Positions 1 through 62,815 of a DNA stretch of 64,000 nt are shown piece after piece (the first letter of the stretch is position 1; each line of letters begins with the position of its first letter). The notes beneath the pieces are model-generated. The model searched no databases. It was not told the origin of the DNA and saw only the letters and a program-made list of their open reading frames with translations. Source of the DNA: Scenedesmus sp. ARA3 (taxonomy: Eukaryota > Chlorophyta > Chlorophyceae > Sphaeropleales > Scenedesmaceae); NCBI GenBank assembly GCA_004335835.1, contig RWJK01001554.1:1-64000 (forward strand). Reading direction: 5' to 3'. A program made the translations under genes and the position numbers.

Positions 1-877
1 GGGACAGTGCAGGTCCTTGCTCATGAAGCCTGCATTGAAGCCGCCCCTGTACTCGTGCGCTGAAAGCACGTCAGGCAGCACACCCTCGCAGCAGCAGCAG
101 CAGCAGCAGCAGTCTGGTGGGTGCGTCATGGGACAGTCGGATGCTGCACCCTGCTGGTGCGTTGTTGAGGCCAGTGCAGCTGCTCGTCGGGCCCGCTGCT
201 GAGCGCCACATCACAGCGGCTGACACATCAGGAGACGTTGGGCAGGGGTGTCCCGATCATGCATTGCTCAAAGGTGCGTAGGCATGCATCATAACACATG
301 TGCTGTTTCGCACCACACTCACCGGCACTGGGTTTTACACCTGGCTGGACCAACAGGTCACACGGAGTGACACGTCACACCAAGTGGCAGGTCACACCAA
401 GTGGCAGGTCACACGGAGTGACACATCATCCACTCACTGGCACTGGGTTGTACACCTGGCTGGACCAGCAGCGTGCCGAGTGACACGTCACACAGTGACA
501 CACCACCCTCACGGGCCGTGACGCATCACCACACTCACTGGCACTGGGTTGTACACCTGGCTGGACCAGCAGCGTGCCGAGGAGCTGTTGAAGACCTGGG
601 TGAGAGCAGCAGGGTCCAGGCCCATGGCCGCCCCCAGTGCCAGCGCCTCGCTGACTGCTGCCATCTGGATGGCCATGGCCAGATTGTTGCAGATCTTGGC
701 CACCTGGCGCGGCAGCAGTGGCAGCAGCAGCAGCAGCAGCAGCATGATGTTGTCGGAGCAGAGATGCTGGCAGCAGCAGCCGCATGTGTTGCACGCCATT
801 GCTAGGTTGTTGCTGATCTTGGCCACCTGACGCGGCAGCAGCAGCAGCAGCGCGGTTCTGCTAGAAAAGAGATGGTG

Positions 878-943
<66 letters not shown>

Positions 944-1102
944 CACCTGCCCAGTGCCAGGTCCCCCAGGTGCTCCACAGCCTTGCCGAGGCACTGCTGC
1001 TGCTGCTGCTGCTGCTCACCTGCCCAGCGCCGGGGTCCCCCAGGTGCTCCACAGCCTTGCCCCCGAGGCACTGCTGCTGCTGCTGCTGCTACTGTTGCTG
1101 CC

Positions 1103-1155
<53 letters not shown>

Positions 1156-1156
1156 A

Positions 1157-1190
<34 letters not shown>

Positions 1191-1302
1191 ACCTGCCCAG
1201 CGCCGGGGTCCCCCAGGTGCTCCACAGCCTTGCCCATCAGCTGCAGCAGCGGCTTAGCAGCACGCACACCAGCAGCACTGCCGCCGCACTGCACAACAAA
1301 CC

Positions 1303-1341
<39 letters not shown>

Positions 1342-3353: not shown

Positions 3354-3373
3354 GCTTAGCTCTTATGCTTCTG

Positions 3374-3802: not shown

Positions 3803-3840
3803 ACCGCACGATACATACTGCAGCAACAGCCCTTCTTCCA

Positions 3841-5088
3841 CTACAGCCCCAGCACGCAGCCGTCACCCCGCGGGTCACTTCCCCCACACAGCACACCACT
3901 CTCCGCATCCCTCGCGATAATCGTGCCCTTGCCAAACACCAGCCGCCCAAACCCGCTGCGCAGCTGCACCTCATGGCCCCTCTCCTGCAAGCCTCTTACA
4001 GCAGCCTCACTCATGCCATCTTCTAGCAGGATGTGGCTCTCGTTCACGCTGGCTGGGCCTGCTGATGAGTCGACGCGGTCGATGCAGAAGCGCGGCATGT
4101 CTAATGCGGCTTGTGGGTCCAGCCCCAGCTCCAGCATGTTGAACAGCAGCTGCAGCGCATTGAACAGCAGCTGAAGCATTATTTCAAACGAGTGTGCAGA
4201 AGCGTTACGTCTAATGCGGCTTGGGGGTCCAGCCCCAGCTCCAGCATGTTAAGCAGCAGCTGCAGCAGGCACAGCAAAAACACACAGAAAGTTCAGTTCC
4301 GCCTACAACAACAGCTAGCAGGCTTGTAATCAGCGCTTTGAACAGCAACTGTAGCCCACAATGCACATGCACAGCAGGTTAATGCTCAGCATGTTGCAAC
4401 CAACGTGCTGGATAATAACCTGCTGTGCATATGCATTGTGTGCTACAGCAGTTGCGGCGCGTTAAAGAGCAGTTGCAGCAGGTTGATATTTGTTTGCATA
4501 AAGTTCAAAAGCAGCGCCGCCTGGGGTTCCAGCCCCAGCTGCAGCATGTTGAGCAGCAGCTGCAGGGTGGGATGCACACACAACGCAGTGTGTTGGAGAG
4601 CAGCTGCAGCATGCTGAGCAGCAACAGCAGCGTGCACAGACGGCAGCGGCTCAGCATGTTAGTCCTTTGGGCAGCTTGACAGCAACTCTGGCAACTGTGT
4701 CCCACTTGCCAGGCAAGTGTGTCCCACCCGCCAGACATCAACAGGTGTCCCACCCACCTGCAGGTGGCCCTGTGGCTGCATGAAGCCTCCCATGCAGCCA
4801 AACGCTGCCATCAGCCCCCCCTCCGCGTCAGTCAGCAGCCCCGGCATGATGGTGTGGTAGGGCCGCTTGCGGGGGGCCAGGCTGTTGGGGTGGCCGGGGT
4901 CCAGGTTGAAGCCGTGGCAGCGGTTCTGCAGGCTGAAACCGCAGCCCTGCGACACAAACATGCAGCAGCAGCAGCAGTGTGTACAGTACTTTGCGTCCTA
5001 TGCACTGCACACGGCTAAGACTAGAGGTTGAAGCCGTGGCAGCGGTTTTGAAGGCTGAAGCCGCAGCCCTGCAACACAAACAAGCAGC

Positions 5089-5121
<33 letters not shown>

Positions 5122-5226
5122 GCGTACAGTACCGCGCGAGCTATGCATTGCACACGGCTAAGACTAGAGGTTGGAGCCGTGGCAGCGGTTTTGAAGGCTG
5201 AAGCCGCAGCCCTGCGACACAAACAT

Positions 5227-5267
<41 letters not shown>

Positions 5268-6102
5268 GTGCACTGTACCTCGCGTCCTATGTACTGCACA
5301 CGGCTAAGACTAGAGGTTGGAGCCGTGGCAGCGGTTCTGCAGGCTGAAGCCACAGCCCTGCGACACAGTAGTAGCAGCAGCAGCAGCAGCAGTGTGAGCA
5401 GCATTTCAAGTCCCCCAGCGGATCTGCAGGCTGCAGCCGCAGCCCTGGCCGGCCCAATATGCCAGCAGCACAGATGAGCAACTGCACGTCTGGCCACATG
5501 CCAAGTGCAGGCCCGCCAGGCATGCTCAACGCCAGCTGAGGGATCTGGAAGGCATCTAGCTGCTGAAGCACAAGTCTGAGCTGAACATGCGTGTGCGCAC
5601 AATGCATGGGTAAGTGCAGCGTACGCTGTCGGGTGCCTGCCGCTGTGGTGCTCTGAAGCCACACATGCAGCATGGCGCAGCCTAGCTCAAGCCCAACATT
5701 TAACAAAAAGCATAGCTGTCCATTGAATGGGAAGCATGACAAGCATAACCCCTCTTGCAGCCTCACCTCAGGCACGATGCCTGTGCCGAAGCCCATCAAG
5801 ATCCTGTCCAATATTGTGTCACGAACCACACATGGCTACCCTATTTCAATTATCCTAGTAGCCCCACCTCAGGCACGATGCGTGTGCCGAAGCCCATCAA
5901 GATCCTGTCTGAGATGGTGTCAAGACGCACACGTCACTACCCTAATTCAAGTATCCTAGTAGCCCCACCTCAGGCACGATGCCTGTGCCAAAGCCCATGT
6001 AGGTGCTCTGGATGAACGATGCAGCATTGCCCTGGCCGTCAACCACCACCTGAAACCAGGAGCAAGGGCCACCACACAGCGCACCACGACAGGCAGTTAC
6101 AC

Positions 6103-6163
<61 letters not shown>

Positions 6164-7062: not shown

Positions 7063-7094
<32 letters not shown>

Positions 7095-7899
7095 CTGCCG
7101 CTGGTTGTGGTGGTGGAGGTAGGAGTGTTGACTGTGTGGTGTTGCTGCTGCTTGCTGTGTGCTTCCAGTACGTTGAGAGCCATGAGTGTGACGATGCCTG
7201 CGGTTGGTGGCGGCACCTCCCACACCACAGCGCCCCTGCAGGCGGGTGAAGCAGCCAGGCCAGCAGCTGGTGGATGCAAATCAACAGTCAAGCTGCAGCA
7301 TTATAGGCTAGCTGCTGCTGACTCACAACATATTTCTGCGGGTCAGGCAGCCAGGCACAACAACGCTGCGCCGTCACAGCTGGCTGCTGCGGGTGAGGCA
7401 GCCGGGCCAGCAGCTGGTGTGTGTACAAATAAATGCTGTGACATCACCACTACCTGGCTGCTGCTGCCTCGCAACATGCATTGTGTCGCTATGTGGCAGC
7501 ATGCAGCACGCTTAAACCCAGCAGCATGTGTGGGTCGCTTCAGCCACACGCCATGCTGCAACTGCCCAGTTGCAGTTCCAGGGCGGCTGGTACTCCCTGC
7601 CACAACGAAAACGGCAGCGCAGCACCCTCCACACATCCACACCTCCACATGTATGAACCGCATGCTCTCAAGGGCCTTTTGCCTACGTCCTGCCTTGCTG
7701 CTCACTGCAAGCAATCTCCTGCCATTTGAGCGTTGATCTCGCTCTTTTTGTAAGTGTTTGATACATTTTGCTACTTACTTTTAAAGAGAAGGAGAGAACA
7801 AAAAGGAAATTTGCCGCGGTGCTGCTGCCACACTCCCTTTCATCCGCTCACTTGTACTGTGTGCTGATGGGCTCCACCTCAGCTGTCATGCATCACTGC

Positions 7900-7944
<45 letters not shown>

Positions 7945-8099
7945 GCAGCTGGTGCCGCACTCCTACTCACTTGTACTGTGCGCTGATGGGCTCCACCTCA
8001 GCTGTGCGGTGGTCGGCAAGGTCCTGCAGGCTCAGTACGCCACCCCGCGACTGCACAGCAGCCACCAGCGCCTCCGCGACCGGCCCTGAGTAGAAGCCT

Positions 8100-8144: not shown

Positions 8145-11031
8145 ATTCATACACTACTGTACAGCAAACCCATAAAGGAATGACACATGTGGCTAGTGAC
8201 ACGTGCCACTTCTGCGGGCCGCAATTGAATGATAAGCACCGTTCAAAAATGTCAGTTTGTCCCTATAACCTATAACATATAAACTAATTCAACTCATACT
8301 GTATGAATCATACAGTATTGCTGGGGTGCAGGGAATGATGTTGGGTTGCTGAAAAGTGATGCCTAGGGCAGGATTGCTTGCAGGCACCCTTTGCAATGAC
8401 ACATGATGTTTGATAAGTTTGCCAACTGTGTACGCCAAACTTGCACACACCGCACAATTCAGAGTTATATCAGTTTGTTGCTTTAAACCTATTACAGCTA
8501 GCACAGCATTGCTGGGGTGCAGGGAATGATGTTGGGTTGCTGAAAAGTGATGCCTTTGGCGGGATTGCTTGCAGGCACCTTCCGCAATAACACAGGCTGT
8601 TTGTTACGCTTGGCGACTGTCCGGGGCAAACTTGGACGCAACGCACCTTTCAAAAATATCATTGAGTTATTTGAAACACAAATAAACTATTACAGCATTG
8701 CTGGAGTGCAGGGAAGGATGTTGGCTTGCTGAACAGTGATGTCTGGTGCAGAAGTGCTCCCAGGCACCCGCCGCAGTGACACGTGGTGTTTGTTACGTTT
8801 GGCAACTGTGTGCGCCAAACTTGCACGCAACGCACCATTCAAAAATATCAGTTCGTTGCTTTTAACCTATTACAACTTTTACATCACTGCTAGGGTGCAG
8901 GAAATGATGTTAGGTCGCTCAGAAGTGATGTCTAGGACGGGATTGCTTGCAGGCGCCCTCCGCACTGACACATGTTATTTGTTACGTTTGGCAACTGTGT
9001 GCGCCAAACTTGCATGCAACGCACCATTCAAAAATATCATTGAGTTTGTTTTGAACATGAACAAACTAGTACAGCATTGATGGGGCATGACATCACACTT
9101 CAGCAGCCCGCTAGTCACCACAGCAGCAGCGCATCACCACGCACCTTCAGCCGCGCGCCGAGCTCCCCTTGCCGACGCAACGTCGCCGCCAGGTCCTTAT
9201 TCCGCCACAGGCCAGACAGCAAGATTAAGATGTGCTGCTTGCACACCTCTGACATGCGTGCATGTTGGCTGCAAGCTGCCTGACAGTAGACAACTAGCGG
9301 GCCATTTCAGACACAGCAGCTCCCCTGCGCACCTTCAGCCGCGCCGAGCTCCCCCAGCCGCCGCAACGTCGCCGCCAGGTCCTTATTGCGCCAGATCTGG
9401 CCCGGCTGCGGCCCTTCACCCTTTTCCGTGATCAGCGCCAACACGCCGGGGCCGCCAGCCGCCGCAATCACCTCGGCACCCTTTTGCCACTCGAATGAGG
9501 CCACGGGGCCCACCGGAAAGCCCTCTTCTGCCAGTTCTATTGCAGGGGCTAGAATATCAGCTAGGCTGCAGTGTCCGCTGCCCCAGCGAGACACAGCATC
9601 CTCCCAGAGCGCTGCTGCGCCGGGCACTGAGACTGTCAGCGCGTGGCGGGGCGGCAGCTCGCTGCCAGTTATGCCTGGTGGAATTGATACCGCAGAAACA
9701 GCAGCAGCAGCAGCAGCAGCAGGTAGCAGGTAGCAGCAGACAGTTGGGGAAGCGCCGGCAGTCTAGTGTGCTGGCAGCAGCAGTTGGTGTAAAAGAGTGC
9801 ATGGCGTGGGCATGCAGCCTGATGTTGCTGTGCAAGCAGCTTGATGTCAAATGCGCTGCTGTGACCTGCTGGGCTTCATGCAGACCAGCGCTGGTGAAAC
9901 AACAAGCACGCGTGGCTGGCCGCCTCAATGCGTGCAAAACAAAACCGCATTAAATCTGCCCCAGGCGACACAACCCCGCGCCGCCCGCACCTGCCGCCCG
10001 CACCGCCTCCAGGCTGAGCCCTGCGGGTGCTGCGCCGTTGCCCTGCAGGCAGTGCACCTTGCGCTGCTGCGCGGAGTAGTACAGCGCGAAGGCGTCGCCG
10101 CCGATGCCTGCAGAGGAAACAGTGGTGCTTTTCAGCTAGCACGCACTGCCGAGGAGGAGGTAGATGCCAAGCGGCTCGCTGTTTGTATGCAAGCTGCATG
10201 CCGCATGGTACACGTCACGCTGTGATTAGTGATGTCGCGCAGCGGCGCCGCACCTGTGCAGCAGGGCTCTGTGACGCTGAGTGCTGCTGCCACTGCCACT
10301 GCTGCGTCTGCTGCGTTGCCGCCTGCCTGCAGGATGCGCAGGCCGGCCTGCGCTGCCAGCGGCTGAGAGCAGGCCACCATACCCTTTGTGGAATACACGG
10401 GGGAGCGCCTGCAGGACAAGGGGCCAGTTTGTCAGTCACTAGGGTTTGCGCTTTGCAGGATTGCCCTTGGTGGAGTAGACGGGGNGGGGGGGGGGGCGCC
10501 TGCAGGACAAGGGGCCAGTTGGTCAGTCACTAGTGTTTGTGCTTTGCAGGATTGCCCTTGGTAGAGTAGACGGGGGAGCGCCTGCAGGACAAGGGGCCAG
10601 TTGGTTGGTCACTAGGGTTTGCTCTTTGCAGGATTGCCCTTGGTGGAGTAGACGGGGGAGCGCCTGTGGGGCCCAATGGGGCCAGTTTGTCAGTCACTAG
10701 GGTTTGGGCCTTTGCAGGACTGAGGCGTAGCGCTGCTGCATGCGCCGGGCGCAGTGTATGGCATGTTGTAATAGATAGATGAATGCTTGGAAATGGAGGG
10801 TGCCTGGCACAGCTGGTGCGTGCTTGTGCCGCACATGCTGCTGCAATTCTGCTGTGTGGCATAATCCTGTGGTGCTGATGCGCACATGCTGGCTTGCATG
10901 GCAACTGCTGCTGCAGGCTGCAATTGCAGCGAGCAGAGAGATTCGGCAGCTTTCACCAACCTGGAGTTGTAAGGCAGCACTACATTGGCGCTGGCAGCCT
11001 GCTGCTGCACCAAGGTACTGTATGTGCCCAT
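3841..11031 (-). CDS. GGT: Gamma-glutamyltransferase family protein (YwrD-like), 611 aa
   Basis: Ntn-hydrolase that cleaves or transfers gamma-glutamyl groups, e.g. from glutathione (family knowledge). Ten exons join in phase to 1836 nt: 10961-11031, 10254-10408, 9991-10107, 9333-9674, 7971-8097, 6869-7235, 6495-6572, 5969-6049, 4758-4946 and 3841-4149. The N-terminus, [20 protein letters not shown], resembles YwrD-type members, which lack the long signal anchor of classical GGTs. Large-subunit motifs are [31 protein letters not shown] and [14 protein letters not shown]. The expected autoprocessing nucleophile is Thr about 416 in KGGDT; the small subunit continues with [27 protein letters not shown] and [12 protein letters not shown]. 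The exon 7 start has two alternative in-frame acceptors. Five or more junctions are echoed in the introns. It is head to head with the PRA1 gene. True substrate and location are unknown. Confidence 0.92.
4090..4562 (-). repeat. Acceptor-side echoes of GGT exon 10
   Basis: The start of exon 10 ([16 protein letters not shown]) at 4090-4152 is repeated at 4205-4262 and 4507-4562 in the upstream intron, each copy preceded by a CAG acceptor. The copies are diverged in sequence but still encode [20 protein letters not shown] peptides. Confidence 0.8.
4331..4470. repeat. Foldback (inverted repeat) in GGT intron 9
   Basis: Arms at about 4341-4382 and 4415-4458 are imperfect reverse complements over about 40 bp (the core reads TAACCTGCTGTGCAT against ATGCACAGCAGGTTA). 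The loop is about 32 nt, and weaker pairing extends outwards. It could be a miniature foldback element or an RNA hairpin; no target-site duplication was identified. Confidence 0.65.
4902..5445 (-). repeat. Five-fold acceptor-side echo of GGT exon 9, about 140-bp period
   Basis: The start of exon 9 (GCGFSLQNR and its acceptor, 4902-4960) recurs at about 5027-5080, 5167-5222, 5307-5364 and 5410-5445. Each copy carries the acceptor, about 45 nt of exon-like sequence and a CAG/CTG tract. The three nearest copies run into a shared in-frame stop (AACCTCTAG). Confidence 0.85.
5763..6000 (-). repeat. Donor-side echoes of GGT exon 8
   Basis: The exon 8 end encoding GFGTGIVPE with its GTGGGG donor at 5961-6000 is repeated at 5862-5902 and 5763-5800, about 100 bp apart, inside intron 8. 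All three keep a usable GT donor. Confidence 0.85.
6101..6160. repeat. (CAG)n tract in GGT intron 7
   Basis: About 60 bp of uninterrupted CAG on the + strand, which is CTG in the sense of the GGT gene. It lies about 50 nt upstream of the exon 8 acceptor. Confidence 0.95.
7846..8143 (-). repeat. Echo of GGT exon 5 donor flanked by CTG/CAG tracts
   Basis: The exon 5 end and donor at 7961-8005 is copied at 7846-7893. A CTG tract (about 7898-7943) lies between them, and a CAG tract (8101-8143) abuts the exon 5 acceptor, so the acceptor reads (CTG)nCAG in the sense of the gene. Confidence 0.8.
8312..9070. repeat. Tandem satellite, four units of about 190 bp, in GGT intron 4
   Basis: Unit starts (ACAGCATTGCTGG-like) fall at 8312, 8503, 8692 and 8881, with the next partial start at 9071, giving units of 191, 189, 189 and 190 bp. 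A degenerate partial unit precedes them at about 8190-8311. Units 2-4 contain the imperfect dyad GTTTGGC(10 nt)GCCAAAC or a variant. They encode nothing recognisable and lack CAG repeats, unlike the rest of the gene. Confidence 0.9.
9139..9205 (-). repeat. Donor-side echo of GGT exon 4
   Basis: A diverged copy of the last 60 nt of exon 4 with its GT donor (true junction at 9333/9332). It lies about 190 bp downstream in intron 4, next to the satellite array. Confidence 0.75.
10392..10665 (-). repeat. Four-fold acceptor-side echo of GGT exon 2
   Basis: The exon 2 start encoding [10 protein letters not shown], preceded by a CAG acceptor, occurs at about 10392-10412 (true), 10481-10503, 10560-10585 and 10636-10665. 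The period is about 80-85 bp. The copies diverge from the exon just after STKG. One copy contains a poly-G run with an ambiguous N at 10485. Confidence 0.85.
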
Positions 11032-15657: not shown

Positions 15658-15707
15658 NNNNNNNNNNNNNNNNNNNNNNNNNNNNNNNNNNNNNNNNNNN
15701 NNNNNNN

Positions 15708-45637: not shown

Positions 45638-47084
45638 ATGGCTGAGCCTGTGCTTAGATCAGAGCAGGAGGTGCTTGCTCGCTTCCATGAGCTGCGCCAG
45701 GGCGTTAGCACACTATTTGCAAAGCTGAACGACATAGAGACAGGTGTGTGCACATGCAGCTGCTGCGCAGCATACTAAGTTCATGTTGGCTCAGCTAGAG
45801 GCTGCTGTGGTTTAAAGCATGTGTCTGGATAGGTACAAGGACCTGCATGTCCAGCAAATGCATACTAGTTGCAGGCTTGCTGCATGTGACTGCATGACCT
45901 GTCGAAGCAGCAGTAGAAGAATGGTGACTTGTCACTTGCCATGAGAACAGGTTAGGTTCCCTGCATGGCTATGCTCTGCATACCTGGGCAGCTAATCTGC
46001 GGTGTTCAGTACACTTGCGCAGCAGGCAGCCTTGCAGGAACAGCTGCTGCACTGCAATTCACTACTGCCCTGTACATGTCAACACGTAGTGGCAGTAATG
46101 TTGCGCCTGCCAATATGTTGCCGGCCGCCTGCATGGCTTGCAGCCACTGTTCCCTCGTACATGTCCCGTGCATTGACAGCAGCAGCTGCGCACTGCGGTG
46201 CTTCCCACACCTCATTATCAATGCCGCGCTGCCATTGTAACACCACTGCATGCTGCTGCTGCCTGCTGCTGCCTGCTGCTTCCTGTTGCTGCTGCTGCTG
46301 CCGCTGCTGCCTGCTGCTGCTGCGCCCTCAGAGGCTGCTGAGCACGACCTTGTGCTGAAGCAGCTGGAGCCAATGGACAAGGGGCGGCGCTGCTACAGGA
46401 TGATCGGCGACGTGCTGGTGGAGCGCACAGTGGCGGAGACGCTGCCCGCAGGTGCGGCACTGTGTGCAAAACATTTCAGCACAGGCAACTGCATACCGTT
46501 ACATTGTTTTAATGGAGGAGTGTTGCATGGCAGCTGCCCGCAGGTGCGGCAGGGGCTGCTCAAGCCAGGTCAGGCAGCTCATTCTGAGCTGCGTCATCGT
46601 TACGTTCAGTTGATGGAGCAGCGATGCAAGCCAGCCCAGGCAGCTGAGGCAGCTTAGAAAGCTGCAACATTGCTACGTTGAGTTCATGTTGATGGGGCAG
46701 CACTTGATGCAAGGCAGGGGCTGGCAGCAGGGTGCAACCAGCGCTCCTGGCAGTTGGGTGATGGTCAGCATGCGAAATCAGCACTGCCTTTCTTGACATT
46801 TGCATACCGCACATAACCGCTGCGTGTGCCGCTGGCTGCCATTTGTTCTTGTTGCTGCACCCTTGTGCGTGCTGCACCCTGCAGTCCAGCGCAACCGTGA
46901 GGGCCTGGGCAACGTCATGAAGCAGCTGCAGGCGCAGCTGGAGGCGCAGCAGAAGGCCCTGGCTGCCTTCCAGCAGCAGTACAAGATCCGGGTGGGGCAG
47001 CCGGGCGAGGCGGGCAGCAGCGAAGGAGGCAAGCCAGCAGCCGCCAGCAAGGATGGACAGGGTGCAGCAGGTGTGCTGTGCTGA
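45638..47084 (+). CDS. PFD2: Prefoldin subunit 2, 141 aa
   Basis: Beta-type subunit of the hexameric prefoldin chaperone that hands unfolded actin and tubulin to CCT (family knowledge). Exons 45638-45743, 46332-46451 and 46885-47084 join to 426 nt. Helix 1 contains LARFHELRQGVSTLFAKLND. The beta-hairpin region has KGRRCYRMIGDVLVERTVAE followed by TLPA. Helix 2 contains VQRNREGLGNVMKQLQAQLE. A Gly/Ser/Lys-rich tail ends GVLC. A decoy copy of the exon 2 end sits at about 46529-46570 and would read out of frame. The 3' coding end is repeated three times downstream of the stop. Divergent from RPB12. Confidence 0.95.
46529..46571 (+). repeat. Echo of PFD2 exon 2 donor
   Basis: GCTGCCCGCAGGTGCGGCA at the true exon 2 junction (46451/46452) is repeated about 90 bp downstream. 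Skipping it gives the conserved LPAVQRNREGL junction, so it is not an exon. Confidence 0.8.
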
Positions 47085-47425
47085 AACAGCGGCACTGACA
47101 AACGTATCAATGAGGTGGAGCAGGAGGGCGGCAAGCCAGCAGCCGCCAGCAAGGATGGAAAGGGCAGCGCAGGCGTGCTGTGCTGAAACAGCGGCGCTGA
47201 TAAAAAATAAACGATGCGGTGGAGCAGGAGGGCGGCAAGCCAGCAGCAGCCAGCAGCAAGCATTGCAAGGGTGCAGCAGGCGTGCTGTGCTGAAAGCAGC
47301 GATGAACCGGTGACGTGGAGCAAGGCAGGTTGAAGTGCGGAGCTGCGTGATTGCTGTGCAGCGAAAGCAGCAAGCCTGCAGCCAGCAGAAAGACTGGCAA
47401 GGGCACGGCATGCATCCTGTGCTGA
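47013..47425 (+). repeat. Repeated C-terminal coding tail of PFD2
   Basis: The coding end 47013-47084 (GGKPAAASKDG, then AAGVLC and stop) is followed by copies at 47115-47186, 47219-47293 and about 47358-47425. The first two copies read EQEGGKPAA and end AGVLC-stop; the third ends ACILC-stop. Reading frame and stop are kept although they lie in the presumed 3' UTR. Confidence 0.85.
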
Positions 47426-50255: not shown

Positions 50256-53200
50256 TCACACCTGTGTGCCGGCAGGAATCACAGCGCCCCGCATCACCAC
50301 CAGGATTCCATCCTTGATCACAATGCCCTTGGGCAGGTTGCTGTTCCTGCCATCCCTGATGCCCTCCTTATTCACCAGCACACAGTTGGGCCCGATGCGT
50401 GCATTGCTGTCCACAATGGCCCGCTCCAGGCGCGTGTTGTGGCCTAGGCCGAGGGGAATGGCGCCGCGCGCCACTTCTTCGGCGCGCGACTCGGTCGTGT
50501 CGATGGTGTCCGCGCCGAAGATTATGGAGTCCTGTGTGTGGTGTAGCAGCGGCAGGCAGATATGAGTTGGCCGAGCAGAATGCAGATGGTACACCTTGCA
50601 GATGTGTGCAGCAGCAGCGGGCAGTGCTGCGACGACGCATGTAGAGCAGCAGGCACGAGCCGCAAATGTCAGCAGCTGGCGCAGCGTAACACAACCTCCT
50701 TAGTGAAGTTGGCAGCAGACCGACCCCAACCCAACCCAGCTGCTTACACGCATGCCCATACGCATGCCCTTATGCACGTCCATACGCAAGCCCACCCAGC
50801 AGCAGCAGCAGCAGCAGCCGCCTCACGCCCTCACCTTGACGAAGCAGTCCTTCTCGATGTACGCGCAGCTGCCGATCACGCTGTTCTTGACCACGCTGCC
50901 CCGCTCCACCCTGCAGGCGTCCCCCACCAGGCTGTCAGCCACGCTGGCGCCGTACACCTTGCTGGGCGGCAGCACGCGCGCCTCGCTGAACAGAGGCGCC
51001 TCGCGGTCAAACAGCTGCAGCCGGCTCGTCTGCACGGGGCACAAGGGGAGAAGAGAACAGTAGGTCAACACAGGTTTGTGGTCCGCTTGCATGTCTGCAT
51101 ACACCTCACTGAACAGGGGCGCCTCGCGGTGAAACAGCTGCAGCCGGCTCGTCTGCAAGCGCAGCGGGGCAGAGATACTGCAAGTCAAAACACATGTTTG
51201 GTGGTCCACTTGCGACCCTGAACGGGGGCGCCTCGCGGTCAAACAGCTGCAACCGGCTCGTCTGCACGCGGCACAGCGGGACAAAGAACCTGTCGTTCAG
51301 CATAGGTTCCACAGGGGGTGTGATCGTGGCTGCTTTCCATTGCTCTGATGCAAGAGAGCAGCCATCAGTAGGTTAGTGGGCGCAGCGCAGGTGGGTGCTA
51401 CCATCTGACATGCCGAGCGCAGGAGGGCTGACCATCAGTGCATACAACATGCTGACATAAATCATATACAGCTTACGTCTGCCGCCAGCGCCATTTGTGC
51501 CGCGTAGTAGTCCTTGAGGCTGCCCACGTCCTCCCAGTAGCCGTGGTGCGGGTAGGCCACGATCTTGAGCTCACCGTGCATCAGCGCAAGGATGTCACGG
51601 CTGAAGTCCACCGCCTGGGGGTTGCCAGCCGCAGGGCAGGACAGTACAGGGCAGGGTGCATCAAACCGAGAGTGGAGCATGCACACAACGATGCATCAGG
51701 GCCAGCGTGTCGCGGGGACAGCCCACCGCCTGCGGCTATGCAAGGCAAGGGAGAGTGTAGGGCAGCACACACACCCCTCCAGCCGCTCACCTTGGGGAAG
51801 CGTGTTGACAGCAGCTCCTGCAGCACCTTGCGCTTGATCACGTACATGCCCATGGACGCAACAAAGGGCTTGCTCACGGCCTCCTCCGCGGTGTCGGCTG
51901 CGGAGGCAACAGGCAGACAGGTAAAAAGCAGACAGGGTGCAGACACGTGTCAGTTGCTCACAGCCTCCTCAGCGGTGTCGGCAGCGGCAGCACTGGCGGC
52001 AGGCGCAAGCACAGACATGCAGGTCAGATACGGACACGACAACGGGCTGACAAGCAATGTGTGTCAGCTGCTGCTGATGACCATGCACACCTGCAGGTGC
52101 TCACACAGATCCACATGCTGCACACTTGTCAGTTGCACGTACTGCTGAAACCTGGCGGGTGCTGCTGCTGCTGCCGCTGCCTCGCCTGCACCGCCTTTCA
52201 CAGTCGCCCTGACACTTTGCTGCGGTAACAACATAGCAATACTCAGACGCAATCAGGCGGCAAGCATGCGGGCACCCTCACCGAAGCCGTACTCGTGCGT
52301 GTCGATGGACATGGTGGCCAGCTGCGTGCGCGGCGGCTTCTCGTGGAACTCCAGCACGTTGCAGCCGCGGTCCACCTGGCAGCAGCAGCGGTGTGGCAGG
52401 ATCAAGTGCGAACAGCAGCAGCAGCAGCCGCCAAAAGGCACACGGATCAGCATCAGCAGCAAGCAACATGCAGCCGCCATCAGATTGCAGAATGTTGGGC
52501 AGTGTCACCTTCAGCAGCAGCCAACAAGCACGCGAACATGCAGGCCATGCAGCAGCTCAGACACCGATGCTGCAGATGGTGCTCTTCCACTTTACTGAAC
52601 GACGAGAGACGCGGAGCAGTCATCAAGCTGTTCTGCAGCAACCACAGGGCCGCAGGTTGGCAGCAGCATTCGCCGCACCGTGAGCATCCCCAGGTGTCTG
52701 GCGCCTGCAGAAAGTGCTGCCACGCTGCATGCTTTTTTACGTATGTGCTTCCTGCAACCCTTTGCACACACTTGTTACACTGCCGGCCGCAACAGCAGCA
52801 GGCTCACCGTGAGAACCCCCAGGTGTGCCGCCTGCCCCGTGCTGCTACGCTGCATGCTGTTTGACGTAGGTACTTCCTGCAACCCGTTACACAATGCGTG
52901 TCACACTGTCAACTGCTGCTGCCAGCTCACCGTGAGCACCCCCAGGTGTGTGGCGTGCTCCTCGTCTGCCGGCGTTGTGGCGATGGTCACGTCAGCGCCC
53001 TTGGCCCTGTGGTAGTTGAGCAGCTGCGTGTAATCCATGCGGTAGCTGCATGAAGGGTGCAGCAGCAGCAGCAGCAGCAGGATGCGGAACTTCAGCCTTG
53101 CTGCAATCCCCTTGAAAAGGACTTCTCAAAGATCTTGCATTGCATTGCAAGCAGCATGCATGCTCGCAACAGGCTTGCTGCTCTGCAGCAGCCGCAAGCC

Positions 53201-55376
53201 CTGACGGCAGGCGCTGCTACAGCCGTGCAGCCGAACCAACCACCAGACGCAGCACCCTCCACACCGCCCTGCTGGCTGCCACCTGCTGCGCCACCTCCCT
53301 TGCTGCTGCATCACCACTTGCACCACCCCCACCACCTGCTGCACCACCCCTTGCTGCTGTACCAACTCCCTTGCTGCTGCATCAACCCTTGCTGCACCAC
53401 CACCACCACCACCTGCTGCACCTCCCGCCACTCACAGCTGGTCTGCCGCCATGATGAGCACGTCCTCGCAGCCCTCGTGCTTGGCCTCGTCAAACAGGTA
53501 CAGGTACCTGGGGGGCAGCACGGCGGCAGGGGCGTGGCAGTGACGTATGGTTAGCGCAGTGCCCAAGAATGCACAACATGCAGTCAAGTACAGGTGGTGG
53601 TGGCACAGCAGCACAGCAGCACAGGCAGCAGGACGGTGTCTGCCAAAGCTTCATACCACGCAACATAACACACAAGACACAAACGCAAGCATGCCGCACC
53701 TGCGCGCAGCATCAACAGTGCGCTGATACCATGCAACAAATACACAGGCACATGCACAAGCAGCTCCAGAAGCAACAGCAACCGAACCAGCACCTGCGCA
53801 CTGCGTCTGCCCTGCCCTGGTACCACGCAACAACCACAGAAACACGCACGCAAGCAACTCCAGAAGCTGACGCATACGCGCCTGCTGTGCCCTGGTGCCA
53901 GGCCTCCACACACTCAACAGGTTATGTAACCAGATTTCCTTGTTTACGCACCTGCGCACTGCGTCTGCCGTGCCCTGGTACCAGGCCTCCTTGGACTCCA
54001 GGCCTGGCCGCTGGCTGGCCGCCAGCGTCTCCACAAAGCCGCTGCCGTGGCCGATGAGCGTCACGTTGTTCAGGAACTGGTACGCGCGGCTCAGGTGCCG
54101 GTTCAGGCTGCAAGAAAAAGATGGCGGCAGCAGCAGCAGCAGGTTGTGAAGCGCAGCAGACAGTAACGAAACACAGCATGACAATAAACAGGANGGGGGG
54201 GGGGGGCAGCGAGGGCAGCAGATGGCGGCAGACATGCAGGTTTCAAGGCGCTGCTGTGGAATGCCGCGTGGTCCCCTCCCCCAACGCTCCTGCACACACA
54301 TAGAAGCCATTCTCAGCCGCCTGCACAAGCTGCCCGCATGCGACCTCATGCCTCATGACATGGCTTCACCACGCACCTGGTGGCATTGCACACACATCAG
54401 ACTGATACCTGCTGCCTGCACAGCTGCCCACACGCAGTCAATATGCCTGGTCACATCACCCCGCCCACCTGGTGGCGTTGTACTGCGTGAGCACGTAGAT
54501 GTTGGAGATGCCGGAGTGGATGCAGTTGCTGAGCGGCACGTCGATCAGCCGGAACAGCCCCGCAAACGGCACTGCAGGCTCAGCGCGAGAGTTGGTCAGC
54601 GGCCACAGGTCAGTGCCGGGGCCACCACCCAGGATCATGGCTGCGCGGCGGCAGCAGCAGCAGCAGCAGCAGGACACGCAGCAGCAGCAGCAGCAGGACA
54701 CGCAGCAGCAGCAGCAGGACACGCAGCAGCAGCAGCGCGGCACGAACCGGAGGTATCAACAGGTGGCCACGTCCGCAATGCGCAGGCAGCTGTGGCTGTG
54801 GCTGCTGAAGCGTACGGTGCAGACCAGCACAAACGGTGCGTGCAGGAAGCGGCCCGGATAATCTCAGTGGGGCAGCCGCACCCCACTCCAAGCAAGCGAT
54901 GGCAAGGTTGCTTGCAAGCAAGCAAGCCGTTTGTGGTGTGCTTTGATTGTTGTTGATCAACATTCGGCACATCACAAAGGGCTTTATCGCTTGCAGAGCG
55001 TGCACTGGGTACTGCTGCTGCACAGTGGGCTGGTCATGTATCTAGATGGATGGCTAGATAGATAAGAGGGATGTCAAGCGCTTGCTGCATGGCTCAGGCC
55101 ACCACCCTAAATGAAGCTCGCATGCATTGCCTGGCTGCAGCGATCACCATGCATCCTGAGCATCTGCATGCGATCTGGCATGGGCAAGTCTGATGCTGCC
55201 TGTGCTGGCTCATGCATCTGCTGCAGCGTGCGCTGCAGGCCATGCTGCATGCTGGGTGCTCTGACGCACCCACGATCTCTTCCGAGGACTTGACTGGAGG
55301 CCGTGCATACGGTTTGAGCTGCTGCTGTGGCTGCTGGGGCGTCTGCTTTGATGCTGGGGGTTGTTGCCTGTTTGAG
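50256..55376 (-). CDS. ADP-glucose pyrophosphorylase, large-subunit-like (5' exon unresolved)
   Basis: Forms ADP-glucose from ATP and glucose-1-phosphate for plastid starch synthesis (family knowledge). Ten exons join in phase: 55270-55376, 54469-54640, 53952-54107, 53436-53507, 52931-53045, 52282-52375, 51791-51897, 51477-51614, 50835-51029 and 50256-50531. Motifs: [99 protein letters not shown], then the left-handed beta-helix domain ending VIPAGTQV. The catalytic-subunit signatures GTRL and RAKPAVP read GTDL and RAEPAVP, as is common in regulatory large subunits. Asp of ADQLYRMDY and Lys of FHEKP are kept. The transit-peptide exon 5' of 55376 was not identified; an in-frame ATG exists at 55663. 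Confidence 0.88.
51000..51275 (-). repeat. Acceptor-side echoes of pyrophosphorylase exon 9
   Basis: The exon 9 start ([12 protein letters not shown] with CAG acceptor) at 51000-51040 recurs at 51108-51160 and 51225-51275, about 115 bp apart. Confidence 0.85.
52677..52955 (-). repeat. Donor-side echoes of pyrophosphorylase exon 5
   Basis: The exon 5 end (HLGVLT and GTGAGC donor, about 52925-52955) recurs at about 52803-52830 and 52677-52700 in intron 5. Confidence 0.75.
53696..53990 (-). repeat. Donor-side echoes of pyrophosphorylase exon 3
   Basis: The exon 3 end [10 protein letters not shown] with GTGCG donor (53948-53990) has copies at about 53881-53912, 53790-53830 and 53696-53730. The most distant still encodes [11 protein letters not shown]. 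Confidence 0.8.
54188..54208. other. Poly-G run with ambiguous base
   Basis: An N at 54194 precedes a run of about 12 G in a pyrophosphorylase intron. A near-identical case occurs at 10481-10497 in the GGT gene. Both are probably sequencing-limited homopolymers. Confidence 0.8.
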
Positions 55377-56850: not shown

Positions 56851-59800
56851 TTAACCATCCGCGCATGCCGCGCAGCACTGCTCCAGCTGCTGCTGCAGCT
56901 GCTGCTGATCCAGGTGCCTCCCAATAAGCACCAGCCTGGTCAGCGCACCATCACTGGCCTGCTGCCCAGCAGCAGCAGCAGCAGCAGCAGCAGCGTGCTT
57001 GTGCAGCACCTGCCAGTCTGCACCCGGCACAATGTCATACAAGTCATACACAGCCTGGAACATGTGCGCCCTGCTGCTGCCTGCCACATGCAGCAAGCCC
57101 TTCATACGCAGCACCTCGGCACGAGCTACGCCTCGCCCTGCCGCTGCTGCTGCTACTGCCTCCTGCCCACCCTCTGCAGCTGCTGCAAGACCTCCTGCTG
57201 CTGCTGCTGCTGCTGCTGCTTTATGCTCCTTTGCTGCGGCTGGGTGGTCCCAGATCAGGCCCTCGACCCAAGCCCTAAAGCGCTCCAGCAGCAGCGGCCG
57301 AGCCACCCTCAGCGCAATGGTCCTGACAGCAGCGTCATGGGCCTGACAGGGCTCCCCAGGCCCCAGGCCAGCCTGGCCGCTGCTGTGCTGCTGCTGCTGC
57401 TGATGGTGATGTTGCTGCTCATGGTGATGGTGTGCAGGGTTGCTGCAGCCCGACGCAGTGCAGCTGCTGGCCGTGCTGCCGTTAGCAGCAGCTGCTGCTG
57501 CTGATACGTCTGCCAGCCACTGCAGCGGCTGCTGCACGGCTGGCGGCAGCGCTGATGTAATGCCATCTGCAGCCTGCTGCTGCTGCTGTGGTTGGTCTGC
57601 TGCTGCTGGTGGTGGGGGCGTCTGCATCTGCTCCAGCAGGCGCAGGTGGTACGCACCGCGGTTCAGCAGCCGGGCCAGGTCCACCCTGCTGTGGCTGGTA
57701 GGGATGATGGCTGCTGCGCTGTTGATGGCCCGCAGCTGGGCAGTAACTGCTGCTGCTTGCTCTTCACTGAGCAGGTCCATCTGCAGCAGGCAGCAGAGCA
57801 CATGCATGTGACAGACAGCATGGCAGCAACAAACCTTTGTGTGGGACAAGTGTAAGGCAACACAATGTCACAGGCCAATCACAGGCTGCGCAACAACACT
57901 GCAGTCCTGGCATCGCTGGCAGCGATCTGGTCCGAGCCGACCCAACCTAAACACAGAACTCAAGGGGCAGCAGCACGTCAGCCGGCAACGCCTGCAGCTG
58001 TGCAATGCATGCAGCGCAGCCTACCAGCCACAGCAAGAGCACCCACACCAGCACCTCCCGACAAACAGCAGATATGGCACTCGCAATGCCACGATGGAAA
58101 ACATCAGCGCCACAGCAGGCACCTGATTCAATAGGATGACGTCAGCCAGTGCTACCTGTAGCTGCACCTCGTTGGTTCGCACCAGACATCAGCTGATTCC
58201 AACGTAACCACAGACACAGCAATCAGAAGCTACAATCATAAACAGCAGCACCGCCCCACCTTGTTCAGCAGGATGGCGTCAGCCAGGGCCACCTGCAGCT
58301 GCGCCTCATTCGCAGCGCCGCCATAACAGTCAACACAAAGTCTCGACAAGCAAAGCCAGCAGCCCCTGCAGCTGCTTTCCATGTGGCACCTACAGCTTGC
58401 CACGCACAGCACCTTACCACACACAACAGATACGGCAAAAATACCATACCAACAACCGGCCCACTTTGTTCAGCAGGATGACGTCACCCGTTCACCCAAT
58501 GCACACCCGCACCTGCCAACAACTACCTGCCACATACGGCAAGCACACTTAAACCACAAACAGCAGCGCCACAGCACGCACCTTGTTCAGTAGGATGACG
58601 TCAGCCAGCGCAACCTGCAGCTGTGCCTCATTGGCTGCGCCGCCAGGCCGCGCCTCGCCCAGCTGGCGCGCCACGTTGCGGCCATCCACCACCGCCACCA
58701 CACCATCCAGCACCACTGCTGCTTCGAGTTCTTCGTCGGTCCACAGCTCCGACATGATGGGCCCGGGGTTGGCCAGGCCTGCAGCAGCGGCACAGAATTG
58801 AGTGCGCAGGTTTCGCTTTGAGTAACAAGGCAGTTGAAAAGGCAACCGCCGCCGTTCACAAATATTCGCCAGAGCAGCAGTGACCGCCTCGATACAAACA
58901 CGAATGCCTGCATTTTGACCAAGGCAAGGGGCACATCAACATCGATGCTCACGGAATTAAACCCTGGTATTAACATGCCTTGAACCCTGCCCGCTCAAAG
59001 CAGCAGCCCTCAACCCAAGCTGCGAGGCCAGATGCCGCCGTTCACGAATATTCGCCAGAGCAGCAGTGACCGCCTCAACACGCACACGAATGCCTGCAGT
59101 TTGACCAGGGCAAAGCACACGTTGAAATGGATGCCCCACGGTAGTGAAACTTGCCGGCATTGTTACTCCACCAGCACGTAGTGAAACCTGCCGGCATTGT
59201 TACTGCCATAGCCCAGCAGCCCCTCCAGCGCCTCATGTGGCGGCTTGTGGCGCCAACAACAACAATGATAAAAAGAATAACAACTGCGGCTGAACTATGG
59301 CGCACCTGTGGTCTCCACCAGCACGTAGTCAAACTTGCCGGCATGGCGGCTACCAGCGCCCAGCAGCCCCTCCAGCGCCCAGCAGCCCCTCCAGCGCCTC
59401 ATGTGGTGCCAAAACCAACATACACATACACGATATACGACAAAATAACAAAGGCAAAGCGCACCTGTGGTCTCCACCAGCACGTAGTCGAACTTGCCCG
59501 CATGCTCACTGCCAGCGCCCAGCAGTCCCTCCAGCGCCTGCACAAACTCCGCCTTCACGCTGCAGCACAGGCAGCCGTTGGCCAGCTCCACCCACTGAGG
59601 CACATCGCTGCGGCCGCCCTGCACTGCCGTGCAGCAGGGGAAGGAAGTTGCAAAGCAGCCGCCGACGTGCTGCGACGGCGATGATGCTGCAACACATGCT
59701 CTGCAGCGCACAGCTTAGACTGCATAAGCCACAGCTGCTGGCACTCTGCCGCTGCAGCCCTACTAGACACCATGCAGCAGCAGCAGCATACATTGCAGTA

Positions 59801-60171
59801 GGGACACGGCAGGATTTAAGCAGCGTGGCCTGCGAGGCAGTGGCGACTCGCCATTGAGCTGCAATACGTAGGGCGACACACAAGCATGATGTGTTGCGCT
59901 GATGTGGCGTCAGCATCAGCTGCTGCAGGCGCTGCTGGCATGCAGTGCGACAGCTGGGCCTGTACAGTGGATGCATAGTGACCGGCACCGCGGGAGACAC
60001 ACTGGCTACACCATGCACACATCCGTGCTATGCATGGCTCTTGAACGCCATGTGATTGCTGCAACGCCGTGGTACTGTTGCATGCTGGCGGCAACGCGCG
60101 GGTGGCTCACCTTGCCTGCCCCAAGGTACCCTGGCGCAGCAGTTATGGCAGCAGCAGCAGCAGCAGCAGCA

Positions 60172-60206
<35 letters not shown>

Positions 60207-60759
60207 TCTGCTACATCTCATGGATAGAAATAGCTGAGGAGTTGCAAGTCTGGCGTAGGTTGGGCAAGCACAGCAGCAGCACTCTGCACGAACGGCACCT
60301 GCTGGCACTCCACAGGTACAGCTGCGGCAGGATTTGGCGCAAGCTTTGCTGCTCTTACGGTAGGCTCGCTCCATACTTGCCTGCTGAGTGAGCTTGTGTG
60401 TTGCATTCACTAGACGAGCAGCGCAGAAGGCCACTGCAGCATGCAAGCCAGCAGAGCGCAGCTTCTGCCAGCAGCAAGCAGTGCTTGCTCACCTGTGATC
60501 AGCGTGACAGGCACAGGCGCCTGCCGCACTGCAGCTGCTGACTGAGATTGTGTCGCTGCTTCTTTCTGAGGTGCTGCTGTTTCTGGTGCTGGTGCTGTTG
60601 CTGGTTCTTCACTGTCTGCAAAACAGCGTTGGGAGCCTAGTCAGCAGCAGTGCCGTGCAGCCCCATCCTTGGACATCCTGCAGCCAGATAGCTGCACAGC
60701 TCACCAGGGCCCAGGGGTACAGCGAGTGGAAGCTCCTCGTCATCGCTGAGGTTGTTCAT
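56851..60759 (-). CDS. ZNG1: ZNG1/CBWD-type zinc chaperone GTPase (CobW family), apparently lacking one exon
   Basis: COG0523 GTPases of the ZNG1 branch deliver zinc to methionine aminopeptidase 1 (family knowledge). Exons found: 60705-60759, 60493-60615, 60111-60130, 59465-59618, 58582-58778 and 56851-57780. The N-terminus MNNLSDDEELPLAVPLG recalls the ELVP docking motif of ZNG1. PVTLITG joins a 20-nt micro-exon giving GYLGAGK (Walker A). Later motifs: WVELANGCLCCSVK (Cys-x-Cys-Cys metal site), KFDYVLVETTGLANPGP, ADVILLNKMDLLSEEQ, a His-rich loop (HHHHEQQHHH) and the CobW C-terminal domain. The exon with the TT after GAGK and the NEFG switch region was not found between 59619 and 60110; splicing across stays in frame. 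It is a pseudogene, an assembly deletion or an unusual exon I missed. Exons 4 and 5 have multiple donor echoes. Confidence 0.82.
58125..58620 (-). repeat. Donor-side echoes of ZNG1 exon 5
   Basis: The exon 5 end (EAQLQVALADVILLNK plus donor, 58571-58620) recurs at about 58470-58495 (short), 58258-58320 and 58125-58175. The last two still encode EVQLQVALADVILLN-like peptides. Confidence 0.85.
59140..59520 (-). repeat. Donor-side echoes of ZNG1 exon 4
   Basis: The exon 4 end (GKFDYVLVETTG with donor, 59461-59520) recurs at about 59303-59400, itself containing a doubled CTGGAGGGGCTGCTGGG block. Further copies lie at 59160-59230 and, partially, at 59140-59170. Confidence 0.85.
60145..60205. repeat. 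(CAG)n tract upstream of the ZNG1 micro-exon
   Basis: CTG orientation in the sense of the gene, ending about 15 nt before the micro-exon acceptor CGCCAG at 60131-60136. Confidence 0.9.
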
Positions 60760-61347
60760 GATGGCGCTGGACGCAAGCACTACACACAAGACGCAGGAAT
60801 GGCTGTGGCGCGTGTCGCTGTACAGCAGTTCTACTGCCAGGCGCGGGAGGCGAAGATATACGAGGTCTAGCGGTGCTTTTAACTGTCAAAGGTCACATGT
60901 ACTTCATCCATTTTAGAAAAAAAGGAGCGTGAGCTGCTCAGAAGCTGGAGAGGCGGCAGAACTGTGTGCCAAACACACTGTGCGTGCATCTGTGACGTCC
61001 ATTCAGCGTAGATTGACTGCTTTTTGTCTGAATCTATTGATTAATTTTTATCGGTGCTGCTGAGTTCTGCTTCAGTGTGCAGCTGTCGAACCCCTGTCTC
61101 CTATCACCCCATAGCCTGTCCTCTGCAGTCCTGCAACTGCATCCCTTCTGATCTCAGACGAAACGTGACATCAGGTACAGCTTTGCTCGCAGACCCTGCC
61201 CTTGCAGCTAGCGCGCTGTCTCACGTCAGCAGCAGCACAGGAGCAGCAGCACCAGGCCAATCCTTTTCACATGTAGGCCTCCTCTCTCGTGCCTGCATCC
61301 CTTGCAGGAAACACTCATAACACAAAGCAAGCAGCAAGCTCGCCACA
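60760..61347. promoter_or_regulatory. Divergent promoter region ZNG1 / TIM9
   Basis: 588 bp between opposite start codons. It contains an AT-rich block near 60915-61060 (TTAATTTTTATCGG) and no coding sequence. Confidence 0.45.
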
Positions 61348-62815
61348 ATGAACTTCCCTGTGGAGGCAATGGCAGACTTGCCTGAGGAGCACAAGGCCTC
61401 CTTCCTGCAGCAGCTGGAGCACATGCAAGTGCGCGACAGGTGCGGCCAGCAGCTGGGTGGGGGGTCCACCCTAAACCCTAAACCCTACAGCAGCCTGCAC
61501 TGTGGTGGGGGGTAAAACGTGTACACTGTTGGGCAGAGGGGTTGTTCTCTTTGAGAGGTGACAGCAGTGTGCGGGAGATCAAAGTTTTGATGAACATGGC
61601 TAGCTGGTGCAGGGGTTGTGGTGGTGCAAGTGAACCTGGGTCTGACATTGTTGGCCAGAAGCCTTCAGCCAGCAACAGCGACAGTCGCAGCAGCTGCACC
61701 TACCTTGCCTGAATGGCAGCAGGGCCATGCGATGGTGCGGTGTCTGCTGTTGCCACCATACTGGCATCAGCAGGGCTCTTCATAAGCACGGAAGCGCACA
61801 CACATACATCTCACCGCTATGGCATGGCTCTAGTGTCGTGAGCAGTTGCCAGGTACGCCGCAGCTCTCCTGCCCCTGGTGTGCTGCTGCAGCAGCACAGA
61901 GCGTGACGTTGTGGTTACTGCACGTGTGCGCACATAGGCATCATGGCACAAGCTTAGAGTCAATGCCCAACCCCCACCCCACCGCATTGCCTGCACCTGC
62001 ATGCCTTCTCCCAGCGCGCCTCCTGGCCTGCCTTCTCCCTGCCCGATGCCACCTGCTGCCGCCTGCTGCTGCTGCTGCTGCTGCTGGCCCCAGCCTGCGT
62101 CTGTACAACGCGCTGGTGGAGCGCTGCTTCAAGGACTGCGTGAGCGACTTCCGCAGCAAAAACCTGGCCAAGGACGAGGAGAAGGTGCGGGGGCTGGGGG
62201 CTGAGTGCTTTACACAGCAGATGTCTTAGGGCTTATGTCAAACTCAAACTCAGGGTTTTGATATCTCAGCAAGAAGCTCAGCAAGAACCTGGCGGGCTTG
62301 GGGCTTTAGGCTCAGGAGGGCTAGTAGGCGGCTAGTTAGCTGTCCTGCTGCTAATTGCTGTTGCTTGCCTGGTGCGTAGCGGGCTGCTGCTGCATGTAGC
62401 TGGCTGATGTCTGCATTGCACTGCACTGCCACTGCCCTTGTCACCCACCACTCACGTATGCTGCTGCTCGCTGCATCTGCGCCTGGTTGTGTGTGGCCTG
62501 CAGTGTGTTCAGAAGTGCTGTGAGAAGTTCATGAACGTGTCAGCACGCACAGGCATGAGGTTCCAGGTGAGTGGCGGGGCTTGAGCTCAAGCCTGTGGTG
62601 ACACTGCCCATGTCAGCTTCTTATGCGTGTCGGTTTAGCAGGCAGGCGGCCAGCAGCTAGAGAATACGCGTGTAGCGCTGCGCCATGTGCTCAGCGCAGG
62701 GTGGTAGGCGCTGCTGACGTGGCTCCGCTGCTGAGGTTGCAGGATCTAGGCTGTAGCCTGGCTGACAGGCTCCTCACGGAAATCTTTTGCTGATGTTGAC
62801 CTATTCACAGAGCAT

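Follow-up and report, generated by a model that had tools for sequence, protein, structure and literature searches.

Copies of exon edges within adjoining introns of Scenedesmus sp. ARA3

The window, a 64,000-nucleotide (nt) stretch of Scenedesmus sp. ARA3 (assembly GCA_004335835.1, contig RWJK01001554.1, positions 1 to 64,000; contig C1167 below), carries HIBADH, GGT, genes for two secreted paralogues, a paladin-like gene, a FAD oxidase gene, PFD2, an AGPase gene, ZNG1 (CobW family) and TIM9. Eight of its proteins, or pieces of them, fit the expected Pfam families, namely 3-hydroxyisobutyrate dehydrogenase, GGT, FAD-binding, prefoldin, cobW, Tim10/DDP, PTP-like phytase (the paladin-like protein) and PRA1. 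In most of these genes, the edge of an exon together with its splice signal recurs within the adjoining intron, and we refer to such a copy as an 'echo'. The pattern is real and widespread in our sample of the genome, albeit with corrections to its first description, which was drawn from the letters of the window.

Echoes in the genes of the window

The original prediction listed ten genes with echoed borders; alignment bears this out for eight of them (HIBADH, GGT, both secreted paralogues, the paladin-like gene, the FAD oxidase, AGPase and ZNG1), but not for PFD2 and TIM9. Fractions in brackets below are matches over aligned positions.

In HIBADH (reverse strand), the donor near 538/539 (site 311–581; real border 525–581) is echoed at 425–480 (55/57) and 311–356 (43/46), and a 17-nt minisatellite occupies 353–423, between the two copies. 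The donor near 1192/1193 (935–1240; real border 1180–1235) is echoed at 1007–1062 and 935–987 (50/54), with CTG tracts between, and the acceptor near 705, placed by reading (672–848; real border 672–725), at 795–848 (47/54). Copies had been described as diverged rather than identical, and most pairs in the window do differ, but the pair 1180–1235 and 1007–1062 is identical throughout (56/56).

GGT, also on the reverse strand, has an acceptor-side border (4083–4565; real 4083–4156) with echoes at 4195–4266 (66/74) and 4516–4565 (44/50). There are arrays of four copies at the acceptors near 4932 (4903–5403; unit ~122–146 nt) and near 10408 (10382–10722; units ~82–91 nt), and an array of 2.4 copies of a 101-nt unit at the donor 5968/5969 (5759–5998). 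Spaced echoes, that is, copies at least 20 nt apart by other sequence, are found at the donors 7970/7971 (7847–8005; real 7966–8005, echo 7847–7886, 39/40) and 9332/9333 (9140–9393; real 9328–9393, echo 9140–9207, 62/68). Additionally, 8311–9085 is an intron-only array of four ~189-nt units that contains no exon text. On the forward strand, the donor 15878/15879 of secreted paralogue 1 (15839–16067; real 15839–15955) is echoed at 15961–16067 (93/117), and the acceptor 19615/19616 of secreted paralogue 2 (19452–19654; real 19600–19654) at 19452–19509 (45/58). At 15658–15707, near 10494 and near 54194, an N run within a CTG tract and G runs with an N, respectively, look like assembly gaps or joins.

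Three donors of the paladin-like gene (reverse strand) are echoed: that near 23188 (23053–23229; real 23186–23229) at 23053–23096 (35/44), that near 29657 (29516–29718; real 29658–29718) at 29516–29577 (51/62), and 31712 (31563–31744; real 31684–31744) by a spaced copy at 31563–31623 (57/61). Its acceptor near 30197 (30180–30367; real 30180–30266) has an echo at 30283–30367, and those near 28410 (28396–28731) and 31954 (31925–32209) have arrays with units of ~108 and ~131 nt, respectively. A perfect 16-nt minisatellite of 7.6 copies fills 26104–26224 within an intron of the same gene. The FAD oxidase donor 41361 (reverse strand, 41183–41437; real 41353–41437) has a spaced echo at 41183–41267 (82/85), across an 85-nt spacer without flank homology.

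In AGPase (reverse strand), the acceptor near 51034 (50981–51308; real 50981–51034) is echoed at 51104–51157 (51/54) and at about 51218–51308, and that near 51897 (51870–51987; real 51870–51903) at 51954–51987 (31/34); the donor 52930 (52661–52961; real 52925–52961) is followed by an echo at 52802–52838 (32/37) and then by an array to 52661, and the donor 53951 (53790–53986; real 53948–53986) by an echo at 53790–53828 (37/39). ZNG1 (reverse strand) has multiple echoes at the donor 58581 (58099–58645; real 58552–58645), namely 58462–58489 (25/28), 58234–58323 (79/94) and 58099–58175 (66/77), and at the donor near 59465, placed by reading (59166–59539; real 59459–59539), namely 59300–59379 (72/80) and 59166–59233 (58/68).

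In PFD2 (forward strand), tandem ~103-nt units span 47006–47499. The gene finder placed an intron at 47071–47142, inside this array, but the reading frame runs on to an identical C-terminus if that intron is ignored. A simpler reading than an echoed splice junction is that the array straddles the stop codon (47082–47084) and the 3' flank, although this is a reading and not a proof. The weaker case in TIM9 amounts to a 14/15 match, which is at the level of chance.

Frequency of echoes and their association with splice junctions

The sample comprised the window, its non-random part, and 25 random stretches (L001–L025) of up to 10 kb, each starting at base 5001 of one of the first 25 of 140 randomly drawn contigs; in total, this is 297,866 bases, or 0.34% of the 87.3-Mb genome (1,567 contigs). 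Genes were modelled from sequence, with no RNA, by a purpose-written, self-trained semi-Markov gene finder, which learned a donor of CAG followed by GTGMG and an acceptor of TGCAG followed by G or C, and which returned 42 genes with 468 exons and 426 introns. As it fuses adjacent genes and calls echoes as exons, the 65 predicted exons that were similar to a neighbouring exon were dropped, and 361 introns, with 722 modelled junctions, were kept.

Echoes are present at 97 of these junctions (54 donors and 43 acceptors): 53 have one, 28 two, seven three, five four, three five and one seven. In 11 introns, one repeat pair spans both borders; when donor, acceptor and both-border cases are pooled, 94 of the 361 introns carry at least one echo (19/84 in the window and 75/277 in the random stretches). 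Local repeats yielded 340 direct high-scoring segment pairs (HSPs), as against 38 inverted ones, for which a slightly different masking rule was used, and two direct ones in block-shuffled sequence. When repeat pairs were shifted circularly inside each gene, 34.6 ± 5.1 junctions had an echo, compared with 96 observed (a tighter gene margin removes one of the 97), and none of 300 shifts reached the observed value; hence, for this fraction of the genome and on our own gene models, the predicted enrichment at junctions is confirmed. Spaced pairs with at least 90% identity mark 40 junctions (8.6 ± 2.7 expected), and 45 such pairs lie at junctions (9.0 expected). Exon-internal pairs are depleted (5 versus 15.2 expected). 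Pairs that lie entirely outside gene spans are also scarcer (2.8 versus 13.0 per 10 kb).

Repeats cover 0.142 of the exon sequence, 0.208 of the intron sequence and 0.066 of the remainder. On the donor side, coverage is ~0.22 over the last 60 nt of the exon and 0.20 over the first 10 nt of the intron, then 0.13–0.14 at +30 to +50 and ~0.20 at +100 to +200; the peak on the acceptor side is weaker (0.19 in the first exon bases and 0.13 at −50). Copies had been said always to lie downstream of donors and upstream of acceptors. The polarity is strong, but not absolute: among donors, 42 have a downstream copy inside the intron, 18 have some other downstream copy and nine have an upstream copy; among acceptors, 36 have an upstream copy inside the intron, 19 have some other upstream copy and 15 have a downstream copy.

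Exons wrongly placed on repeats would make the repeats look splice-bound, and such an artefact is suggested by the self-trained models, made without RNA, by the merging of adjacent genes, by the 65 of 468 exons that resembled their neighbours and had to be removed, and by an alignment of EF-G suggesting that one modelled acceptor is misplaced by ~27–30 nt. Against this, the pattern is strong in genes supported by homology, namely those for EF-G, AP-4 epsilon, AGPase, GGT, HIBADH and CobW, and we hold it very unlikely that gene-model error accounts for it.

Start-codon echoes were seen in one, and stop-side echoes in nine, of the 42 predicted genes, but a number of the stop-side cases are donors called in error or arrays of short period. 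Stop-codon echoes were accordingly rejected as a general class: those of L007 and L009 look like donors mis-called as stops, the HIBADH case is a missed donor, L022 and L024 are short-period arrays, and PFD2 and perhaps L019, L015 and L008 remain. In L019, at 4646–4809, a 49-nt copy with 98% identity ends at the predicted stop codon, with a 65-nt unrelated-looking spacer; should this stop be real, not all of the copying is delimited by splice sites.

Echo frequency differs between sequences, from 0/17 to 9/10 introns (overdispersion 99.9; null mean 25.1 and null maximum 54.9 in 2000 runs): L008 (the 9/10 case) and L025 (11/14) are echo-rich, and L003, L006, L010, L013, L020, L023 and L024 are echo-free. 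Across the 25 sequences with at least five introns, and with five factors tried, it correlates with simple-repeat content (rho 0.57, p = 0.003), donor score (rho 0.50) and intron length (rho 0.62), the last being partly a consequence, and shows no correlation with GC content.

Anatomy, coding constraint and intron length

The nearest echo is 100–139 nt away at 52 of the 97 junctions. The best pair is spaced, rather than head to tail, at 53 of them, although some of these pairs link non-adjacent copies of one array, and in 32 of the 53 the homology extends no more than 12 nt past the splice site. Of these 32 splice-ending pairs (mean z 0.95), four have homologous flanks at p ≤ 0.05, compared with 16 of the 21 other spaced pairs; the spacers of the 32 measure 38–327 nt, 20 of them being 50–95 nt long. 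In a set of 102 spaced copies, assembled under a looser definition, the quartiles of the exon-side length are 45, 61 and 81 nt. The outer end has no fixed place in the exon and comes to within 5 nt of the opposite exon end in two of the 102; the copies are thus not, as a rule, duplicates of a whole exon with both splice sites. Exact ends are uncertain by a few nt, because the shared splice consensus can add matching bases.

These measurements bear on the suggestion that tandem duplication of AGGT-containing exon segments, a route to intron gain, might explain the pattern in general. A related precedent is the potato RdRp gene, in which, according to the available excerpt of PMC4974935, a duplicate crosses an intron–exon boundary. 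Nevertheless, the intron length equals the repeat shift in just one of the 11 both-border cases, most echoes lie within introns far longer than the unit, and spaced pairs predominate as described above; the suggestion thus fails as a general explanation, and we consider it extremely improbable.

For the 44 junctions with at least two echoes, we compared the 50 nt beyond each copy. Exactly one flank is unrelated at 19 junctions, and more than one at three. Where there is a sole unrelated flank, it belongs to the outermost copy in 15 cases (5.5 expected), to the real border in three and to a middle copy in one; with a stricter threshold, it is outermost in 14 of 18. Many arrays therefore read copy-(spacer-copy)n and end in unrelated intron. 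Head-to-tail units of a single period are seen in several multi-copy arrays, but not for many outermost or single spaced copies. An origin of the spaced copies through tandem duplication and subsequent decay seems unlikely from these alignments, because pairs of similar divergence include both alignable and non-alignable introns, and because it is mostly the outermost flank that lacks homology.

Where at least 60 intron columns could be aligned (37 pairs), mismatches amount to 8.9% in the exon part and 14.5% in the intron part, near the 1:2 ratio expected when only the exon copy is constrained. Gene conversion might instead keep intronic exon copies exon-like while their intron flanks diverge, such that old tandem duplicates come to look spaced and splice-delimited. 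In keeping with this, 56 pairs with an exon identity of at least 0.9 (mean 0.938) have a mean intron flank identity of 0.61 (0.36 in a random control) with a continuous spread, and the step sizes of spaced and tandem copies look alike by eye. Conversion itself, however, does not predict the outermost position of the sole unrelated flank in 15 of 19 junctions, and some spaced copies retain a fully matching piece of intron that ends abruptly (24/24 nt in an example from L011); we regard this account as unlikely.

Mismatches between exon and echo number 144, 154 and 257 at the first, second and third codon positions, over 1900, 1900 and 1896 sites, respectively. The third-position share, 46%, is close to the half that would result from synonymous change in the exon and unrestricted change in the echo, and is in line with constraint on the exon copy only at the protein level; copies with up to 12 aligned intron columns (73/65/115) and the remainder (71/89/142) are similar in this respect. 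Echo peptides are, moreover, absent from homologues of three proteins. EF-G (the L009 model, first 390 residues), AP-4 epsilon (L025, 346 residues) and AGPase (window, 444 residues) were aligned with solved proteins, no echo peptides being present; the queries had been typed without the echoes, with some edges set by hand, and the alignments therefore show homologues that lack the repeats.

The original prediction also allowed that echoes serve as decoy or alternative splice sites, which would be kept for regulation. Their splice scores are close to those of real sites (median 5.87 versus 6.64), with 32 of 172 echoes scoring higher than the real site and 160 of 172 scoring above zero. Furthermore, the predicted retention of the splice dinucleotides was upheld, with GT in 50/54 and AG in 39/43, although the choice of pairs, which must reach past the junction, favours this outcome; copies that are ~90% identical are expected to keep both bases in about four-fifths of cases, and retention is not clearly above expectation. 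Splicing at the echo would lengthen the transcript by a multiple of three bases for 60 of the 172 copies, as for random frame, and the added stretch is stop-free in only 15 of 172. Together with the neutral codon pattern, this counts against regulatory sites, which appear most unlikely. We conclude that most echoes are non-functional as exons; noise splicing at echo sites is possible.

The prediction of intron growth fares better. Introns with zero, one, two, three and at least four donor or acceptor echoes (n = 276, 39, 25, 8 and 13) have median lengths of 279, 415, 535, 617.5 and 919 nt, and echo-bearing introns are longer overall (median 477.5 versus 283 nt, p = 3 × 10−11). Each of the first two echoes is thus associated with ~120–136 nt of additional median length. 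In the twelve echo-rich sequences, the medians are 293, 406, 530, 641 and 878 nt; a linear fit gives 99 ± 16 nt per echo, and the step size should accordingly be taken as approximate.

Origin of the echoes and its implications

The reading that we favour, with a probability of about 0.5, is that echoes are non-functional by-products of local DNA duplication, arising through local copying and a selection filter, with unequal exchange multiplying the copies. A founding event would leave a second copy of the exon edge some 100–140 nt away in the adjoining intron, typically comprising 45–80 nt of exon and a few nt of splice signal, behind an unrelated separator of often 50–95 nt. Unequal exchange or slippage between copies would multiply spacer-plus-copy units into arrays, and selection would eliminate duplications that alter the mRNA; the copy contiguous with the coding body would stay in use, with the others becoming intron and decaying at about the synonymous rate. 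The copies, their excess at junctions, the layout of the arrays, the neutral codon pattern and the lack of echo peptides in homologues of three proteins are observed; we infer the founding event, the exchange and the filter, no intermediate state having been seen.

A number of observations weigh against this reading. Intron-only pairs are too few for duplication that is blind to exons (51 versus 97.9 expected, and 10 versus 32.4 for spaced pairs with at least 90% identity), and slower decay of pairs with one constrained member would explain a factor of ~2 at most. Nor do random breakpoints predict the pile-up of inner ends 0–9 nt past the junction, where 42 of the 102 spaced copies stop; a further 28 stop at 10–59 nt, 14 at 60 nt or beyond and 18 within the exon. 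Per 100 columns, there are 0.35 gaps in the exon part and 2.38 in the intron part, exceeding the expected two-fold difference, although gaps near an alignment end tend to shorten the alignment. Of the multi-echo junctions, 14/44 have no unrelated flank and 8/44 have only unrelated ones. The trend in intron length is confounded, since longer introns have more room for echoes, and the origin of the spacers is unaccounted for by local copying. In particular, blind duplication plus selection does not explain the intron-only shortage or the pile-up of ends at splice signals.

Both would be explained by directed copying, in which breaks, template switching or repair synthesis favour exon–intron borders because of the sharp GC change, chromatin or the co-transcriptional state, and copies naturally run from the exon interior to the splice signal. 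The inner-end pile-up (16 of 28 copies at an identity of at least 92%), the rarity of flank homology in splice-ending pairs and the drop in GC content across donors, from ~0.62 to 0.54, are all consistent with it. On the other hand, we know of no enzyme or lesion that prefers such borders; the outer ends fall anywhere in the exon; the PFD2 array and the L019 copy at stops, if real, are events unrelated to splicing; the mean flank z of the splice-ending pairs leaves slight residual similarity possible; and no spliced copies were recognised. We view directed copying as possible, though rather doubtful. The same tentative standing applies to the broader proposal that exon edges are preferred sources of local copying in this lineage, tied to borders, working in ~120-nt steps and providing a main route of intron lengthening genome-wide.

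Searches for other sources of the copies were likewise made. With simple repeats skipped, a whole-genome search found no second copy of the oxidase echo region, and none of the ZNG1 echo region besides one 55-nt partial match, in which intron positions 59080–59134 are 82% identical to 95456–95510 of contig C1165. Fifty-two spacers compared with the 298-kb sample revealed no obvious dispersed family by eye, the 275 matches outside a spacer itself being mostly CAG/CTG tracts or the spacer's own locus. No spliced (processed) copies were recognised with 330 exon–exon junction queries; 31 HSPs from the same locus reach at least 16 nt to each side of the junction, and on inspection these look like in-place extensions, simple repeats, arrays or domain repeats. 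Nor did paralogues supply an empty site, as the L005 region, which we take to encode a light-harvesting protein, matches itself only, and the L019 region, presumably a kinase, matches only short diverged pieces.

Literature searches returned papers on intron gain and on repeats, and no earlier description of iterated exon-edge copies in introns was found among them. In tandem or mutually exclusive exon duplication, exon text and a splice site are likewise repeated in the neighbouring intron; echoes differ in that they copy exon edges only, lose the frame and show a neutral codon pattern. The border duplications outlined in the available excerpts of PMC3443670 and PMC4974935 resemble echoes as short direct duplications at or across an exon–intron border with the functional copy preserved, whereas, in Scenedesmus, existing introns are enlarged, usually with no new intron boundary, and the copies are iterated and, in the majority of cases, lie apart with unrelated sequence between them. 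Introners, as excerpted from PMC9860276, similarly shape introns genome-wide; unlike them, each echo derives from its own exon, and no dispersed family was seen when two regions were compared with the genome and the spacers with the sample. Fill-in duplications at DNA breaks (PMC8355091, in excerpt) are also small, direct and local, but they are tandem, whereas echoes are often split by a 50–95-nt spacer and have ends that cluster at splice signals.

For annotation, echoes carry a warning, as ab initio gene finders may mistake echoes for exons (ours did so for 65 of 468) and so inflate predicted proteins with repeated peptides. In Chlamydomonas relatives, according to the excerpt of PMC8226300, long introns are of unexplained selective value. 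Echoes represent a concrete, datable route of intron growth that has left its trace in about a quarter of the sampled introns. The exon copy serves as a fixed reference against which each echo can be dated and its breakpoints located, making the mutational mechanism testable in sister strains.

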